DNA of 64,000 bases from assembly GCA_963575745.1 (NCBI GenBank), contig CAUYUJ010022542.1:1-64000 (forward strand), given 5' to 3'. Positions within the stretch are counted from its first letter, which is position 1. Each line of letters begins with the position of its first letter. The stretch comes from Prorocentrum cordatum. Its lineage: Eukaryota; Sar; Dinophyceae; Prorocentrales; Prorocentraceae. The position numbers and the translations under genes are program-made. Shown here piece after piece: positions 987-61,920 of this stretch. The notes beneath the pieces were generated by a model. It was not told the origin of the DNA. It worked only from the letters and a program-made list of their open reading frames with translations, and ran no database searches.

Positions 987-3202
987 TGGAGTCGGGCGTG
1001 TCCCCCTGCAGGAGGAGCCTCGACGAGCAACAAAGCACAGTGTGTGCAACAGATTCCAGCATGGCCGGAGTTGGTGCAAGCAGTAGTCTGTCCCCGGACT
1101 GTTTTTTCCCAACCATCCTGTGGTGTTGGGTCCTCGTTTTGAAGAGACGGTGCCCCGCGTTCCTCTCCTTCCTCCTCCCCCTCCTCCCTCCTCCCCCTCC
1201 TTGCCTCTGCTCTCGGCACACCTCTCACACGTTTCGTAGCCCCATAGGGAGCTCCACCGAAGGCCCCAGTGGGGGTGTCCACATGCGGTTCCCCCACCCA
1301 GGGCAGCGATTCGTAGCCCCAGAGGGAGCTCCACCGAAGGCCCCAGTGGGGGTGTCCACATGCGGTTCCCCCACCCAGGGCAGCGTTTCGTAGCCCCATA
1401 GGGAGCTCCACCGAAGGCCCCAGTGGGGGTGTCCACATGCGGTTCCCCCACCCAGGGCAGCGTTTCGTGGCCCCATAGGGAGCTCCACCGAAGGCCCCAG
1501 TGGGGGTGTCCACATGCGGTTCCCCCACCCAGGGCAGCGCTTCGTGGCCCCATAGGGAGCTCCACCGAAGGCCCCAGTGGGGGTGTCCACATGAGTTCCC
1601 CCACCCAGGGCAGCGTTTCGTGCCCCAGAGGGAGCTCCACCGAAGGCCCCAGTGGGGGTGTCCACATGCGTTCCCCCACCCAGGGCAGCGTTTCGTAGCC
1701 CCAGAGGGAGCTCCACCGAAGGCCCCAGTGGGGGTGTCCACATGCGGTTCCCCCACCCAGGGCAGCGTTTCGTAGCCCCAGAGGGAGCTCCACCGAAGGC
1801 CCCAGTGGGGGTGTCCACATGCGGTTCCCCCACCCAGGGCAGCGTTTCGTAGCCCCATAGGGAGCTCCACCGAAGGCCCCAGTGGGGGTGTCCGCATGCG
1901 GTTCCCCCACCCAGGGCAGCGTTTCGTAGCCCCATAGGGAGCTCCACCGAAGGAAGGCCCCAGTGGGGGTGTCCACATGCGGTTCCCCCACCCAGGGCAG
2001 CGTTTCGTAGCCCCATAGGGAGCTCCACCGAAGGCCCCAGTGGGGGTGTCCGCATGCGGTTCCCCCACCCAGGGCAGCGTTTCGTGGCCCCATAGGGAGC
2101 TCCACCGAAGGCCCCAGTGGGGGTGTCCACATGCGGTTCCCCCACCCAGGGCAGCGTTTCGTAGCCCCAGAGGGAGCTCCACCGAAGGCCCCAGTGGGGG
2201 TGTCCACATGCGGTTCCCCCACCCAGGGCAGCGTTTCGTAGCCCCATAGGGAGCTCCACCGAAGGCCCCAGTGGGGGTGTCCACATGCGGTTCCCCCACC
2301 CAGGTGCAGCGTTTCGTGGCAGCGCCATAGGGAGCTCCACCGAAGGCCCCAGTGGGGGTGTCCACATGCGGTTCCCCCACCCAGGGCAGCGTTTCGTAGC
2401 CCCATAGGGAGCTCCACCGAAGGCCCCAGTGGGGGTGTCCACATGCGGTTCCCCCACCCAGGGCAGCGTTTCGTAGCCCCATAGGGAGCTCCACCGAAGG
2501 CCCCAGTGGGGGTGTCCACATGCGGTTCCCCCACCCAGGGCAGCGTTTCGTAGCCCCATAGGGAGCTCCACCGAAGGCCCCAGTGGGGGTGTCCACATGC
2601 GGTTCCCCCACCCAGGGCAGCGTTTCGTGGCCCCATAGGGAGCTCCACCGAAGGCCCCAGTGGGGGTGTCCACATGCGGTTCCCCCACCCAGGGCAGCGT
2701 TTCGTAGCCCCAGAGGGAGCTCCACCGAAGGCCCCAGTGGGGGTGTCCACATGCGGTTCCCCCACCCAGGGCAGCGTTTCGTAGCCCCATAGGGAGCTCC
2801 ACCGTAGGCCCCAGTGGGGCTGCCCTCATGCGGTTCCCCCACCCAGGGCAGCGTTTCGTAGCCCCAGAGGGAGCTCCACCGTAGGCCCCAGTGGGGGTGC
2901 CCGCATGCGGTTCCCCCACCAAGGGCAGCGTTTCGTGGCCCCACAGGGAGCTCCACCGAAGGCCCCAGTGGGGCTGCCTGCATGCGGTTCCCCCACCCAG
3001 GGCAGCGTTTCGTAGCCCCATAGGGAGCTCCACCGAAGGCCCCAGTGGGGGTGTTCGCATGCGTCTCCACTACCCAGAGGTAGCGCCGCCGAAAACGATA
3101 TTCACACTTGCGGTATTCACAGTTGCATATGGTTGGGTCCTTCGCCAGGATAGTTTACTATCTGTGAATGTTCCCCCCTGCAGAGGGGCAGGCCCGACTT
3201 GA
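987..3202. mobile_element. TIR element 1, 2.2 kb, carrying a 77-bp minisatellite
   Basis: Left end TGGAGTCGGGCGTGTCCCCC (987-1006) and right end complementary to it (3177-3202, AGGGGCAGGCCCGACTTGA). Flanking 8-mers CCCTCCCC (979-986) and ACCTCCCC (3203-3210) match at 7 of 8 positions, as a target duplication would. Next to the left end is a block CCCAACCATCCTGTGGTG...GCCCCGCGTT (about 1110-1162) and next to the right end GCATATGGTTGGGTCCTTC (3124-3142). Both blocks recur in element 2. The middle is the 77-bp array. No transposase is visible, so the element would be non-autonomous. It lies exactly between two frames that join in phase when it is removed, which suggests it behaves as an intron; however, the right duplication has no AG, so the splice sites are not evident. 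Confidence 0.75.
1232..3068. repeat. 77-bp minisatellite, about 24 copies
   Basis: Direct 77-bp periodicity: the core GGGAGCTCCACCGAAGGCCC starts at 1247, 1324, 1401, 1478 and so on to about 3030. Copies differ at a few sites (CATA versus CAGA, GTAGCC versus GTGGCC, CACATG versus CGCATG) and one copy has a 4-bp insertion near 1935. Because the unit has no stop codon on the minus strand and 77 is not divisible by 3, all three minus frames stay open, giving spurious proteins of 600-870 residues. Confidence 0.97.
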
Positions 3203-53062: not shown

Positions 53063-53284
53063 TCAAGTCGGGCCTGTCCCTCTACAGGAAGAGGATGTTT
53101 AACCAAGTCAAGAAGGTAGCCTGGGGACGAGTGTTTGACCATGCTTGAGCTTCTCTGAGCATGGTTGGAGTATTTTTTTCCCAACCATCCTGTGGTGTTG
53201 GGTCCTCGTTTTGAAGAGACGGTGCCCCGCGTTCTCCTTCCTTCCTCCCGCTGTCTCCTCCCCCCTCCCATCATCATCATCATC

Positions 53285-54032
53285 AACACCCATTTCGGCA
53301 CACCCCTCACACGCTTCGTGGCTCCATAGGGAGCTCCACCGAAGGCCCCAGTGCCCGCGGCCGCATGCGTCCCCCACACCCATTTCGGCACACCCCTCAC
53401 ACGTTTCGTGGCTCCATAGGGAGCTCCACCGAAGGCCCCAGTGCCCGCGGCCGCATGCGTCCCCCACACCCATTTCGGCACACCCCTCACACGTTTCGTG
53501 GCTCCATAGGGAGCTCCACCGAAGGCCCCAGTGCCCGCGGCCGCATGCGTCCCCCACACCCATTTCGGCACACCCCTCACACGTTTCGTGGCTCCATAGG
53601 GAGCTCCACCGAAGGCCCCAGTGCCCGCGGCCGCATGCGTCCCCCACACCCATTTCGGCACACCCCTCACACGTTTCGTGGCTCCATAGGGAGCTCCACC
53701 GAAGGCCCCAGTGCCCGCGGCCGCATGCGTCCCCCACACCCATTTCGGCACACCCCTCACACGTTTCGTGGCTCCATAGGGAGCTCCACCGAAGGCCCCA
53801 GTGCCCGCGGCCGCATGCGTCCCCACACCCATTTCGGCACACCCCTCACACGTTTCGTGGCTCCATAGGGAGCTCCACCGAAGGCCCCAGTGCCCGCGGC
53901 CGCATGCGTCACCCACACCCATTTCGGCACACCCCTCACACGTTTCGTGGCTCCATAGGGAGCTCCACCGAAGGCCTCAGTGCCGCCGCCCGCATGCGTC
54001 ACCCCCACCCATTTCGGCACACCCCCCGCATT
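53285..54032. repeat. 90-bp minisatellite, about 8 copies
   Basis: CACCCCTCACACGTTTCGTGG recurs every 90 bp (53391, 53481, 53571 ...). Units share CATAGGGAGCTCCACCGAAG with the 77-bp array at 1232-3068 but have CCCGCGGCCGCATGCG in place of GGGGGTGTCCACATGCGG. Last units slightly diverged. Confidence 0.97.
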
Positions 54033-54045
54033 TCTCGCACGGCAG

Positions 54046-54511
54046 GGTCATCACCACGGTGGCGTGCCAGGGGCGCACCATGCGCGAAGGCGACGGGGCG
54101 GGGGAACGGCGCTCCGGGGGCGGCCAGACCTCCGGGGCGCGAGCAGTCCGCGGCCAGACCATCTCTCGGTCCTGTGGACTCTCGCCCTGGGCCGTCGGCT
54201 GCCCGGCGCGCTGCTCCCTCGGTCGACGTCGCCCAGGCGTGATCCTGGATTGCGGCCGCCACGAGGTAGGGAACGGCAAGAAGGAGGACGACGACTGGTG
54301 GCTGGAGCTCTACGTGCTGCTCTCGCGCGCCACGCGCCACGAGGACCTCCTGCTCATGCGGGCGCCGCGCATCGAGTTCTTCCTGGCAGGGCCGCCGCAG
54401 GGCTTGCGGAAGCAGCTGGAGCAGTTTGCGGCGCGCACGAAGCGGTGCAGGAGGGAAGCGACGGCCCTCGCCAGGGAGCTCGGCTTCACCGAGTTCATCC
54501 GCGAGGCCTGA
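54046..54511 (+). CDS. C-terminal exons of an SF1-type (UvrD/Pif1-like) helicase
   Basis: SF1 helicases unwind nucleic acid using ATP. After a probable 3' splice site (TCGCACGGCAG, 54035-54045) the frame reads VITTVACQGRTMREG, then past an intron VILDCGRHEVGNGKKEDDDW and LELYVLLSRATRHEDLLLMR, ending FTEFIREA and TGA at 54509-54511. The pattern T-x-ACQGxT ... LYVLLSRAT is that of helicase motifs V and VI, where the Gln/Gly and the SRAT arginine contact ATP. After it comes a charged helix (LRKQLEQFAARTKRCRREAT) typical of a C-terminal tail. The intron 54090-54236 starts GC, ends AG, is 147 nt and stop-free, so the unspliced frame is also open. N-terminal motifs I-IV are not in the window. Whether the gene is complete upstream or a captured fragment is unknown. 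Confidence 0.7.
54090..54236 (+). other. GC-AG intron in the helicase fragment
   Basis: Exon ends CGCGAAG at 54089, intron GCGACGGGG ... GTCGCCCAG, exon resumes GCGTGATCC at 54237. Removal joins MREG directly to VILDC, which fits the helicase pattern; with the intron retained 49 Arg/Gly/Pro-rich residues interrupt it. GC donors are common in dinoflagellates. Confidence 0.7.
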
Positions 54512-55177
54512 CCTGAGGAGCGTCTCCCCCGAGCCGCGCCTTCTCTCGACTGCCCGACTAATTGTTTGGCCTCGCGCCGCGGACGACCCGCGCGCGTCGC
54601 TGGGGCCCTCTCGGGGCGACCAGCGCGCGTCGCGGGAACTCCGTGCTGCGGGGGGCCCGGCGCCTCGTTCGCCCGTCGTCGCTCTGCCCAGCGGTCAGAG
54701 ACTTGCCCGCTATCAGCCAGCCAGTTAGCTAGTCAGCTCTCTCTGCTTCGCGCAGCGGACGACCCGCGCGCGTCGCTGGGGCCCCGCCCGGGGCGACCAG
54801 CGCGCGTCGCGGGGACTCCGCGCTGCGCTGCGCCCGCAGCCTTGGATTTTGGAGTGCGCGGGCAAAGAGGAAGGAAAAGAAGAGCCGAAAGCGGGCGCGA
54901 TCCTCGCAAGAGGCGTGCCGACATGGGCGTCGCGACGTGCGGACGCTGCCGTCGGGGTTCCCGCGGAAGCTGCCTGCGACGGCCACGCCCAGTGTCACGT
55001 GTGTTCGGACAGGCATTCTCGACACTTACACTAGGCGGTTCCATGATCGCATTCATGCAAATATATTCAATCGCGCGCAGACCCATTCATACTCAGATTC
55101 CCTCGCGCTCTGACTCACCCGCGTTCTTTCTCTCGTAATCAGATCTATTGTATTCCTTTGCGATGTGCACCCCGCCA
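54512..55177. repeat. 3' flank with duplicated GACGACCCGCGCGCGTCGCTG block
   Basis: 54580-54650 and 54758-54830 are duplicates (178-bp offset) sharing GACGACCCGCGCGCGTCGCT and GCGACCAGCGCGCGTCGCGG. No gene in the rest. Confidence 0.8.
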
Positions 55178-55339
55178 CATTTCGGCACACCCCTCATGCG
55201 GTTCGTGGCCCCATAGGGGGCGCCACCGAAGAAGATACTCACAATTGCGATACTCACAACTGCATATGGTTGGGTCCTTCGCCAGGATAATTTAATCTAG
55301 CATGCAAAAACAGCCTGTAGGAGGACAGGCCCGACTTTA

Positions 55340-58819: not shown

Positions 58820-59575
58820 CGCGTCTTTTTTTCCTCCTCCCGCCTCCTGCCTCTCGCCGCCAATCTCTCTCTCTCTCTCTGTTTCTCTCTTGCTCTCTTT
58901 CTCTCGTTCTCTCTCTCTCTCTCTCTCCCCTTCTCGTTGCCTGCGGTACCTGTCTAGGACCCTGCCGTCCCTGGGGGGCTGCGATCTGCGAAGCTGTCGC
59001 CACTTTCGTGGGCTGCCGGTGGGTCCAGCGGAGTGAGGCACCGCGCGGATTTGGGCAAGGCCTCGCCGTCCCTGGGTGGCTGCGATCTGCGAAATTGTCG
59101 CCACTTTCTTTCGAGGGCTGCTGGTGGGTCCAGCGGAGTGAGGCACCGCGCGGGTCTGAGCGAGACCTCCCCGTCCCTGGGGGGCTGCGATCTGCGACGC
59201 TGTCGCCATTTTCGAAGCTGCTGGTGGGTCCAGCGGAGCGAGGCACCGCGCAGACCTGAGCGGGACCTCCCCGTCCTTGGGGGGCTGCGATCTGCGAAGC
59301 TGTCGCCACTTTGGAGGGCTGCTGGTGGGTCCAGCGGGGTGAGGCACCGCGCAGACCTGAGCGGGACCTCGCCGTCCCTGGGGGGCTGCGATCTGCGAAA
59401 CTGTCGCCACCTTCGCGGGTTGCTGGTGGGCCCAGTTTCTTTCTCCTCCTCCGCCTTCATCATCCGTCCTCCGTATTCCTCCCTCCTCCCCGTCCTCCTT
59501 CTCTTCCCCCTCCCCCTCCGCCTCCTGCCTCCACTGACGTGACGAATGCGGCCGCTACGGCATTTTCGAAGGCTG
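58820..59575. repeat. Satellite cassette B
   Basis: Second copy of the cassette with a (CT)n tract (58865-58928) replacing part of the left flank, five regular units at about 58979, 59080, 59184, 59285 and 59387, and the same right flank. Regular spacing suggests it is less degraded than cassette A. Confidence 0.93.
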
Positions 59576-59723
59576 CTGGCCCCCGTGCTGCGTCCGCGTG
59601 GCCTCGCCTCGCCTCGCCTCCCCCCCTCCCTCCCCCTTGATGTAGGGGCCCGACAAGCCAGCTCAGACCCCCTGGCCGCCGCCCGGAGCCTCTGCATGGA
59701 ATCGTCGTCTGGGTTTCTTGCAG

Positions 59724-60069
59724 GCGCTGGCCGGGGACCGAGAACGGCGAGGGACCAGGAGGTTCGAGACCCAGATTTAAGTCGGGCCTGTCCCCCTACA
59801 GGGGGATTTTCGACGAAAAATACAAAATACTTTTCAAAATAATTTAAAAAATAGTCCAAAAATAGTCTGGGGACTATTATCTGAGCTTTAAAAAAAAACA
59901 TTTTGGACTATTTTGGGGGTATTTTTTGTTGTTCGTCGAGAATCCCCCTGTAGGGGGACAGACCCGACTTAAACCCAGACCTCTGGCGTCATGATCTGTT
60001 CACGACGTCGACCCCCAGAGGTCTCCACCCATTCCCCGGGACTGGCTTTTCTCTCTGAACTCGTTTGAC
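59724..60069 (+). CDS. Candidate exon split by TIR element 3
   Basis: After a 3'-splice-like TTTCTTGCAG (59714-59723) a frame reads ALAGDRERRGTRRFETQ up to the target duplication ACCCAGAT (59769-59776). If element 3 plus one duplication is removed, the frame continues TSGVMICSRRRPPEVSTHSP and GLAFLSELV to a TGA at about 60067. With the element left in place, an in-frame stop occurs inside it. No family is recognised, and the piece is short, so coding status rests mainly on the precise join. Confidence 0.4.
59777..59972. mobile_element. TIR element 3 (196 bp)
   Basis: Termini TTAAGTCGGGCCTGTCCCCC (59777-59796, continuing TACAGGGGGATTTTCGACGA) and the complement ending GACCCGACTTAA at 59972 match over about 40 bp. 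Flanked by ACCCAGAT (59769-59776) and ACCCAGAC (59973-59980), 7 of 8 identical. Interior is AT-rich and itself partly palindromic (AATAGTCCAAAAATAGTC ... GGACTATTTT). It shares TCTGGGGACT with element 4. Confidence 0.9.
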
Positions 60070-60209
60070 GGCCCCGGGGCTCGGCGGGGGCCCTCGGAGG
60101 CAGAAGCCAGCATGACACATTCCGCTGGCGTGGCATCGCTCGGACGTGTGCATTTTTTCTCGGCGAGAACCATCGAGGAAAATCCTGGACCATCGAGCAA
60201 AAAACAAAA

Positions 60210-60245
60210 AAACACACACACACACAAACAAAAAAAAAAAAAAAA
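60210..60245. repeat. (CA)n and poly-A tract
   Basis: CACACACACACAAACA followed by 15 or so A; short and possibly affected by homopolymer error. Confidence 0.85.
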
Positions 60246-60467
60246 CTCGCGAAACCGAAAAATGCACGGGAAATGGGCGTCCGAGCGACGGCAAGACAAT
60301 GCGAGGGGGTTTGAGGATGCGAGCGGGAATGGCCGGGTGAGCACGGGGGGCAGTTGGAGAGGCGCTCTCTCGTTGGCACTATCCCAAAGGGCTCTGCTCT
60401 TTTCGGGTTCTTTTCTGCGTCGGCTTCCCAGCCTTTGTACAGAGTCGATGGAGACGCTGTTTTCCTA

Positions 60468-60585
60468 GGGGGGCACATGCGAACCCTACCCCTACCTCCC
60501 ACGATTTCTGAAGTGAACCCCACCCTCCCCCCTCCCCCTCAGAAATCGTGGGGGGTAGGGGTAGGGTTCGCATGTGGCCCCCTCC
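60468..60585. repeat. Long hairpin (42-bp arms)
   Basis: GGGGGCACATGCGAACCCTA (from 60470, continuing to GATTTCTGA at about 60510) and its complement at 60539-60582 pair over about 42 bp with a 27-bp C-rich loop. Could be a minimal TIR element or a regulatory hairpin. Confidence 0.85.
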
Positions 60586-61140
60586 CTTCGGAGACCCTGT
60601 GGCGTCGCGTCTGCCTTAGAGCGCGCCGCCGTGGAGCAGGGTGGCGTGTCGGAGGAAGTCCTCCACGCGCCGGGCGTGGAAGGGATGCACGCGCTGTTGG
60701 GCTTCAGTCGGGCCCGTCCCTCTACAGGGGAAGATTTAGAAATACGTAGTCAAAACAATTGTCTGGGGACTGTTTTTTGAGTTATTTTTTGGCCACTTCG
60801 GATTATTTGTTTGATTTGTTTTATTTTTCGTCGAAAATCCCCCTGTAGGGGGACACGTCCGACTTGACGTTAGGCGGCGCGCGCAACGAGGCGGTCGGAG
60901 CAGACATGCATGCGAATCGCGCTGCGGTGGCAGCGGTACGAGCTGCAAGTGAAGATCAGGACTGGGCTCTCCCGAAGTGGTTTTCCTGGCCCGATGTGCA
61001 GGCGTTCCTTGTCGCCCCCGGCTTGGAGGGGGACCCAGAGGAGGCCGCGCGCGGCATCGCGCAGCTCATGGACCAGATCGCGCATAGGGATGCGGGGCAT
61101 GAGTTCCCCTTGGTCCAGCCGTCGGAGCTCGGGGTGGAAG
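60574..61140 (+). CDS. Candidate gene with element-derived GC-AG intron
   Basis: Upstream exon: a frame reading ALERAAVEQGGVSEEVLHAP and GVEGMHALL to the first base of a Gly codon at 60700. Downstream exon from 60874: GARNEAVGADMHANRAAVAA, ASEDQDWALPKWFSWPDVQA, FLVAPGLEGDPEEAARGIAQ and DAGHEFPLVQPSELGVE. The intron 60701-60873 starts GC, ends AG, is 173 nt (not a multiple of 3) and consists of TIR element 4 plus parts of its two target duplications. Splicing rebuilds one 8-bp target site and joins the exons in phase (g|gc). Composition (acidic, amphipathic, Trp-containing) is protein-like and unlike the neighbouring repeats. No family recognised. The 3' end runs into a 9-bp repeat at 61140. 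Confidence 0.62.
60703..60867. mobile_element. TIR element 4 (165 bp), probable introner
   Basis: Termini TTCAGTCGGGCCCGTCCCTC (60703-60722) and the complement ending CGTCCGACTTGA (60867), with ATTTTTCGTCGAAAATCCCC near the right end as in element 3. Flanked by TGTTGGGC (60695-60702) and CGTTAGGC (60868-60875), 6 of 8 identical. The GC of the left copy and the AG of the right copy are the likely splice dinucleotides. Confidence 0.88.
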
Positions 61141-61255
61141 TGAGCCTTATGAGCCTTATAGGCTCCATGAGCCATATGAGCCTTCTTGAGCCCTATGAGC
61201 CCTATGAACCCTATGAGACCCATGAGCCCTATGAGCCGCATGAGACTTTATGGCG
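61140..61255. repeat. 9-bp GAGCCYTAT repeat
   Basis: GAGCCTTAT, GAGCCCTAT, GAGCCATAT and related 9-mers, about twelve units; in frame it encodes EPYEPYE-type repeats. Confidence 0.92.
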
Positions 61256-61380: not shown

Positions 61381-61432
61381 GGTGTTGGTTTGTTTGTTTG
61401 TTCGTTCGTTCGTTTGTTTGTTTTTTGTCGTC
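61381..61432. repeat. (TTTG/TTCG)n microsatellite
   Basis: TTTGTTTGTTTGTTCGTTCG run. Confidence 0.93.
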
Positions 61433-61435
61433 CCG

Positions 61436-61920
61436 CCCGCGGCCCACCCGCGACCCATCCCGCGACCCGCCCCGCGACCCGCCCCGCGACCCACCCCGCG
61501 ACCCACCCCGTGACCCCCCCCGACCCACCCCGCGACCCCCCCGCGACCCACCCCGCGACCCACCCCGCGATCCACCCCGCGACCCACCTGCGACCCGCAC
61601 CGCGACCCACCCGCGACCCACCCCGCGACCCATCCGCGACCCACCCGCGACCCACCCGCGACCCATTTGCGACCGGCCCGCGGTCCACCCCGCGACCCAC
61701 CCCGCGACCCACCCGCGACCCACCCGCGACCCAACAGCGACCCACCCGCGACCACCCCGCGACCCACCAGCGACCCACCCGCGACCCAACAGCGTCCCAC
61801 CCGCGACCCACCCGCGACCCACCCGCGACCCACTCGCGACCCGCCCGCGGCCCACCCCGCGACCCATCCGGGACAATCCCGCAACCCATGTGCGACCCAC
61901 CCGCGACCTACCCGCAGTGG
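61436..61920. repeat. CGCGACCCACCC 10-12-bp satellite
   Basis: About 45 units of CGCGACCCACC or CGCGACCCACCC. All frames on both strands stay open (Arg/Pro/Asp or Gly/Arg/Val), which is an artefact. Confidence 0.97.

Follow-up and report, generated by a model that had tools for sequence, protein, structure and literature searches.

The question raised by this locus is whether a small element with inverted ends, which lies in a modelled gene of the dinoflagellate Prorocentrum cordatum, has become a spliceosomal intron, and which of its parts supply the splice sites. How new spliceosomal introns originate has been asked for a long time, and the dinoflagellates are one of the main groups in which this can be watched. 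The window, i.e. the whole stretch of 64,000 nt that was analyzed, forms the beginning of contig C21693 (122,156 bp) in a genome of 4.13 Gb and 21,875 contigs; the elements 1 to 4, duplications, exons and introns given below are on its + strand. A sequence-only reading had proposed an introner between positions 60574 and 61140, the target duplication of which would provide a GC donor and an AG acceptor. Our analysis indicates that this element (element 4) is a real and well-preserved introner-like insertion, which probably represents an intron gain. The proposal was supported with respect to the intron in the models, the paralogous site without the element and the membership in a large family of TIR elements; it was not supported with respect to the exact splice sites.

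Element 4 is a MITE-like element of 165 bp with inverted ends (60703..60867). Its inverted arms (60706-60730 and 60840-60864) are 25 nt long and 84% complementary; within the window the core of the inverted repeat is matched 8 times with at most 3 mismatches, compared to a mean of 0.88 in shuffled sequences. The element is flanked on the left by TGTTGGGC (60695..60702), which contains the GC at 60701-60702 that had been taken as the donor, and on the right by CGTTAGGC (60868..60875), which contains an AG at 60872-60873. Re-reading the coordinates gave the sequence as described earlier, with inverted ends and flanking duplications; excising 60701-60873 (GC...AG) indeed takes out 173 nt and restores one target site. 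The target duplication is present with a length of 8 bp but is imperfect, since only 6 of the 8 positions are alike. The 173-nt stretch has a strong RNA fold (z -5.89), as is expected for any TIR element, and a search of the whole window with Rfam at gathering scores gave no match.

The family to which element 4 belongs is large. With the element and some flank as a query, the window and at least 39 other places were scored, out of 3,168 first-look candidates. An exact 26-nt pattern of the right end occurs at 29 places in the genome, the window's own included. The exact left-end pattern is present in at least 7,122 left ends genome-wide and in none of the control; this number counts exact left ends only, and the pattern does not allow a T as the first base of the target, which leaves element 4 itself, with a T at this base, outside the count. 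A profile search of the collected loci resulted in 108 non-overlapping matches, 38 of which were discarded as incomplete or too close to the end of a locus. Removal of duplicates left 59 unique full-length copies, which are mostly the best matches and no random sample. An exact 8-bp duplication flanks 28 of these 59 copies, and in 45 of them at least 6 of the 8 positions are alike. Exact duplications with lengths of 4-7 or 9-12 bp are found in 0/59 copies, and those with a length of 3 in five; the contrast between these lengths and length 8 identifies the 8-bp duplication as a property of the family. The family consensus has the ends TTAAGTCGGGC...GCCCGACTTAA and starts with TTAAG; element 4 is 85% identical to it, while the median of the copies is 88%. 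We know of no transposase for this family. The literature that we searched contained no description of it, which is not meant as a claim that the family is unpublished.

The window contains other elements of this kind. Element 3 (59777..59972), with the duplication ACCCAGAT/ACCCAGAC, belongs to the same family. Two longer relatives with like ends are element 1 (987..3202), with the duplication CCCTCCCC/ACCTCCCC (7/8 alike), and element 2 (53063..55339), with CCATAAGA/CCATATGG (6/8 alike). The mutual matches between these 2.2-2.3 kb elements are mostly many offset ones, which points to a common internal tandem repeat.

The target of the family is palindromic and CTAG-like. In the 45 copies with a duplication the commonest bases at duplication positions 3-6 are C, T, A and G; in 100 further sites, the first 100 of the left-end places, they occur there 67, 74, 64 and 73 times, respectively. 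When the analysis is restricted to copies with agreeing duplications, T is present at position 4 in 36/44 and A at position 5 in 29/37; the values for these 100 further sites are T in 74, A in 64 and TA jointly in 43. The family hence shows the nnnTAnnn pattern in an 8-bp duplication that marks hAT elements of the Buster type; its ends start with TTAAG and not with the CAG of Mar, an element of that type. Mismatches between left and right duplications in the 45 copies cluster at position 5, which is the A in the TA center (8/19). Selection against stop codons was considered as a reason for this cluster and was rejected, because at element 4 the ancestral TAG/TAA is out of phase in the modelled frame.

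Both ends of the family carry potential splice sites. A GT is present at element positions 5-6 in the left end of 45/45 copies with a duplication and in the right end of 41/45. It has the context TTAA/GTCGGG in the family and TTCA/GTCGGG in element 4. An AG at duplication positions 5-6 occurs in 22/45 or 25/45 copies, depending on the orientation, and in 45/100 further sites for one orientation. A donor borne by the duplication itself (AG and directly after it GT, GC or GA) is present in 7/45 and 5/45 copies by orientation and in 14/100 further sites. Among the 7,122 left-end places 521 have an AG/GC or AG/GT target. The 59 copies hinted that those starting with TTCA tend to have GC at positions 7-8 of the duplication; this was rejected after inspection of 100 further sites (0/11 versus 10/89).

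Next we compared the element with gene models from this species. When the joined frame served as the query of a first protein search, three public P. cordatum proteins (P0001-P0003) were found, all from a contig of 122,156 bp, the length of C21693. A profile search, in which the best 7,994 candidates by shared words were scored, found the same proteins and in addition P0004, which represents a cluster of 8 members; only the representative was examined. Mapping of P0004 placed exon 1, as far as the protein reaches, at 59546..59641, followed by intron 1 (59642-60359; GT-AG, exact mapping), exon 2 (60360..60472), intron 2 (60473..60593; 121 nt, GC-AG), exon 3 (60594..60706), intron 3 (60707..60873; 167 nt, GT-AG, exact mapping), exon 4 (60874..61170) and a fourth intron (61171-64035; GC-AG). 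Exon 4 has alternative ends at 61126 in P0002 and 61081 in P0003. After these ends the two isoforms have alternative GC donors and one common acceptor at 64036, just past the end of the window; their tails are in differing frames. Two isoforms with one acceptor and different GC donors are what transcript-based updating would give. The P. cordatum models were made with PASA and with Minimap2 altered to take non-canonical GC and GA donors (PMC10666404). From the multiple isoforms and this description of the methods we infer that the models at element 4 rest on transcripts, although they may be partly ab initio. Two repeats were seen in this region: the end of exon 4 contains a 9-nt tandem repeat similar to TGAGCCCTA (61141-61255), part of which is translated in P0001, and repeats resembling CGCGACCCACC form a long array at ~61420-61920.

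The same junction, 60706/60874, is present in all four model representatives, with proteins that read ...MHALLGFS/GARNEAV.... The junction could be shifted by 1-2 bases; of the possible placements, GT-AG is the one that gives standard intron ends. The donor GT of intron 3 (60707-60708) is located inside the inverted repeat of element 4, and the acceptor AG (60872-60873) inside the right duplication. Intron 3 in other words comprises element 4 without its initial 4 nt and, in addition, the initial 6 nt of the right duplication, and the modelled splice of 167 nt keeps 6 nt more in the mRNA than a target without the element. Of the two splice sites proposed earlier, the AG acceptor from the right duplication was thus recovered in the models; the GC donor was not, since all four representatives use the GT at 60707.

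A site without the element had been suggested as a check, and it was found as a paralog in the same genome. The left flank of element 4 matches two other places in the genome, on contigs C9917 and C19636, and the right flank matches one, on C19636. The latter contig is collinear with window positions 59679-61142, with 72-87% identity per block, and lacks three elements of the window, i.e. elements 3 and 4 and the inverted-repeat element in intron 2. Its sequence at the position that corresponds to element 4 is CTGTTAGAGGGCGCG, which speaks for TTAG in the ancestral target; at the position of element 3 it has just one copy of the target, with no trace of the element. We considered that C19636 might be an intronless retrocopy. 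This is excluded, because the paralog contains sequence from intron 1 and CCTTCGGAG, which the window's model splices out; C19636 hence provides a homologous site without the element at the DNA level and is not a processed copy. Not every absence in C19636 marks an insertion, since it also lacks ~60129-60295, a stretch that belongs to none of the elements. The matching blocks of C9917 are devoid of element 3 and of the intron-2 element; where element 4 would be expected, this contig has a deletion. The decision between gain and loss of element 4 is therefore based on one comparison, because only C19636 reaches across the site; from this comparison we infer a gain on the window's copy and not a loss on C19636.

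The sequence-only reading had used as its main argument that splicing joins two protein-like frames in phase. Both joins, 60700/60874 and 60706/60874, do keep the phase, but this carries little weight: when the target was restored, 41/59 family copies had frames of at least 46 codons open on both sides in some frame (frames that run into N stretches were excluded from this count), so that an in-phase join is expected by chance. The protein-like nature of the frames did not hold up in the comparison of the paralogs. Counted by codon position (1/2/3) in the frame of the model, exon 3 has 2/9/1 and exon 4 has 13/16/11 differences between the window and C19636, and exon 3 has 2/2/2 between the window and C9917; there is no excess at the third position in any of these comparisons. 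The position-2 skew in exon 3 would fit another frame, a remark made post hoc. C19636 also differs from the window by small frame-changing indels. P0004 had no Pfam match up to an E value of 1, and P0002 had one, which is far below the cut-off. No protein of the empty paralog was returned by the profile search among the best 7,994 candidates scored within the length limit. Without the third-position excess coding is unproven, and the locus may represent a fast-evolving or a non-coding transcript. This doubt has no bearing on the splicing of element 4, yet it removes the main argument of the earlier proposal.

These data bear on an alternative that we consider somewhat unlikely, namely that element 4 is a MITE like any other, in a locus that is decaying or does not code for protein, that its intron is minor or misannotated, and that the family has no special ability to make introns. 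Open frames of this size are usual in the family, the family has thousands of copies, constraint on codon positions is absent and the Pfam search with P0004 was negative, all of which are consistent with this explanation. The same is true for the choice of targets: in 100 sites AG/GY targets are not preferred over their mirror image (9 versus 9), so there is no sign that insertions capable of forming an intron are favored, and the behavior of the family is that of a general MITE the ends of which are convenient. The structure of the gene models argues in the other direction. One and the same junction is found in all four representatives in spite of their varying 5' and 3' structure, and the edges of element 4 are within 4 and 6 nt of the edges of the modelled intron.

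The alternative intron of the sequence-only reading (60701..60873; 173 nt, GC-AG) would take both of its splice sites from the duplicated target, with the GC at 60701 and the AG at 60872-60873, and would restore the mRNA exactly. Here both cuts fall at an identical position of the duplication. The product, LLGGAR, aligns without a gap to LLEGAR of the empty paralog, while the modelled LLGFSGAR is two residues longer. GC donors are moreover the commonest kind in the models of this species, with 51.4% (PMC10666404). Nevertheless we regard this splice as improbable, since none of the four representatives uses it; they have the GT at 60707, even though GC donors occur at other introns in the models of this gene. 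That element 4 predates the duplication of the locus and was lost from C19636 is very improbable: its 85% identity to the consensus and the 2/8 differences between its duplications make it about as diverged as the paralogs (85%), but three separate elements would need to be lost from C19636, where just one copy of the target, without any trace of the element, is present at the site of element 3.

The explanation that we favor, and consider fairly likely, is that a MITE was inserted in a transcribed stretch and is now an intron, with the donor GT from its TIR and the acceptor AG from the duplication. Element 4 would be a copy of a non-autonomous cut-and-paste DNA transposon with an 8-bp TA-centered duplication such as that of hAT/Buster elements; by the likeness of the duplication the family may be assigned to this superfamily. 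After insertion into a transcribed stretch of P. cordatum, the spliceosome would take the GT at positions 5-6 of the family's inverted end as the donor, and the acceptor AG would be supplied by the CTAG-like target, duplicated on the right. GT-AG splicing would then leave 8+4+2 nt where 8 nt had been, with 4 nt from the element and 2 nt from the duplication; the additional 6 nt are two codons and the reading frame is therefore kept. Intron formation would be a by-product wherever an element of the family lands in a transcript.

Element 4 is the one family copy that was shown to coincide with a modelled intron. Element 3 is nested in intron 1 and is not flush with its ends. Intron 2 consists almost entirely of another inverted-repeat element with 45-nt arms (60467-60511 and 60539-60583), which differs from element 4 and is absent from C19636; relatives of this element were seen in the loci L060 and L014. 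A second family copy in a coding gene was looked for in 172 joined frames from the 59 copies, of which the 20 longest and the top 40 by residue make-up were judged by eye. Nine chosen AG/GY copies were also examined; the right duplication could be placed with at least 7/8 positions alike in 4/9. Among the frames examined, that of a copy in L030 (1334-1528) with the exact duplication GCGTAGTC looked protein-like; the copy seems to interrupt a continuous open frame. It has no AG at duplication positions 5-6 in the orientation of the frame, which speaks against the favored explanation. A protein search with the frame found no match, and the copy was rejected as a second case in a coding gene. More tentatively, we can imagine a family of thousands of copies that is intron-ready as a whole. 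With GT at both ends and a CTAG target that brings an AG in about half of the insertions per orientation, its members would be spliceable in either orientation and always with two additional codons, and a second, different inverted-repeat element would also have become the neighboring intron. We consider this general form of the explanation rather doubtful.

The significance of the locus is that filled and empty copies of one stretch are present in one genome and that two neighboring modelled introns coincide with mobile elements. The source of each splice site can consequently be read and tested with existing RNA data.

Several known systems resemble element 4. Dougan et al. 2023 (PMC10666404) described introner elements and introns rich in inverted repeats in P. 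cordatum, with a published assembly of 4.15 Gb. These introns are from the same species and, like element 4, combine inverted repeats close to either end with a boundary direct repeat; they were found by a pattern search (8-20 nt inverted and 3-5 nt direct repeats), in the description of which no family is named, whereas we describe one family with 8-bp duplications, a target motif and an empty site. In Amoebophrya direct repeats overlap the exon edges and inverted repeats are located inside (PMC7789003). Mar, a hAT/Buster MITE of Drosophila (PMC3517528), is non-autonomous and has an 8-bp nnnTAnnn duplication like the family of element 4, but its ends start with CAG instead of TTAAG. Gozashti et al. 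2022 (PMC9860276) reported a range of sources for splice sites, including families that carry a donor and families that add codons. In the type of their Fig. 2C the donor is in the element and the acceptor is co-opted; this is also the case in element 4, with an acceptor from the duplication. The type of their Fig. 2F adds codons with 12 nt, compared to 6 nt, in frame, in element 4. Element 4 differs from both types by inverted repeats plus an 8-bp duplication. In the introners of Symbiodinium microadriaticum (Fig. 2B in PMC9860276) the roles of the splice sites are reversed relative to element 4, and the duplication is 4 bp. The same study called introners those elements in which the similarity starts no more than 5 exonic or 10 intronic bases from both intron edges, in at least four introns of non-paralogous genes; by the mapping of P0004, element 4 starts 4 nt on the exonic side of the donor and ends 6 nt on the intronic side of the acceptor, so that both edges of this one intron are within these limits. 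Recent introns made by introners in several dinoflagellates are covered in a review (PMC11453091) citing Roy et al. 2023 (Curr Biol); recent intron creation is common to these and to element 4, a comparison at the level of the review and not family by family. The expectation that introner-made introns had already been described in dinoflagellates is borne out by PMC11453091 and PMC10666404. With the birth of introns from such elements already established in dinoflagellates and in P. cordatum, the probable gain at this locus provides a well-resolved example, together with a family-level rule that can be tested.
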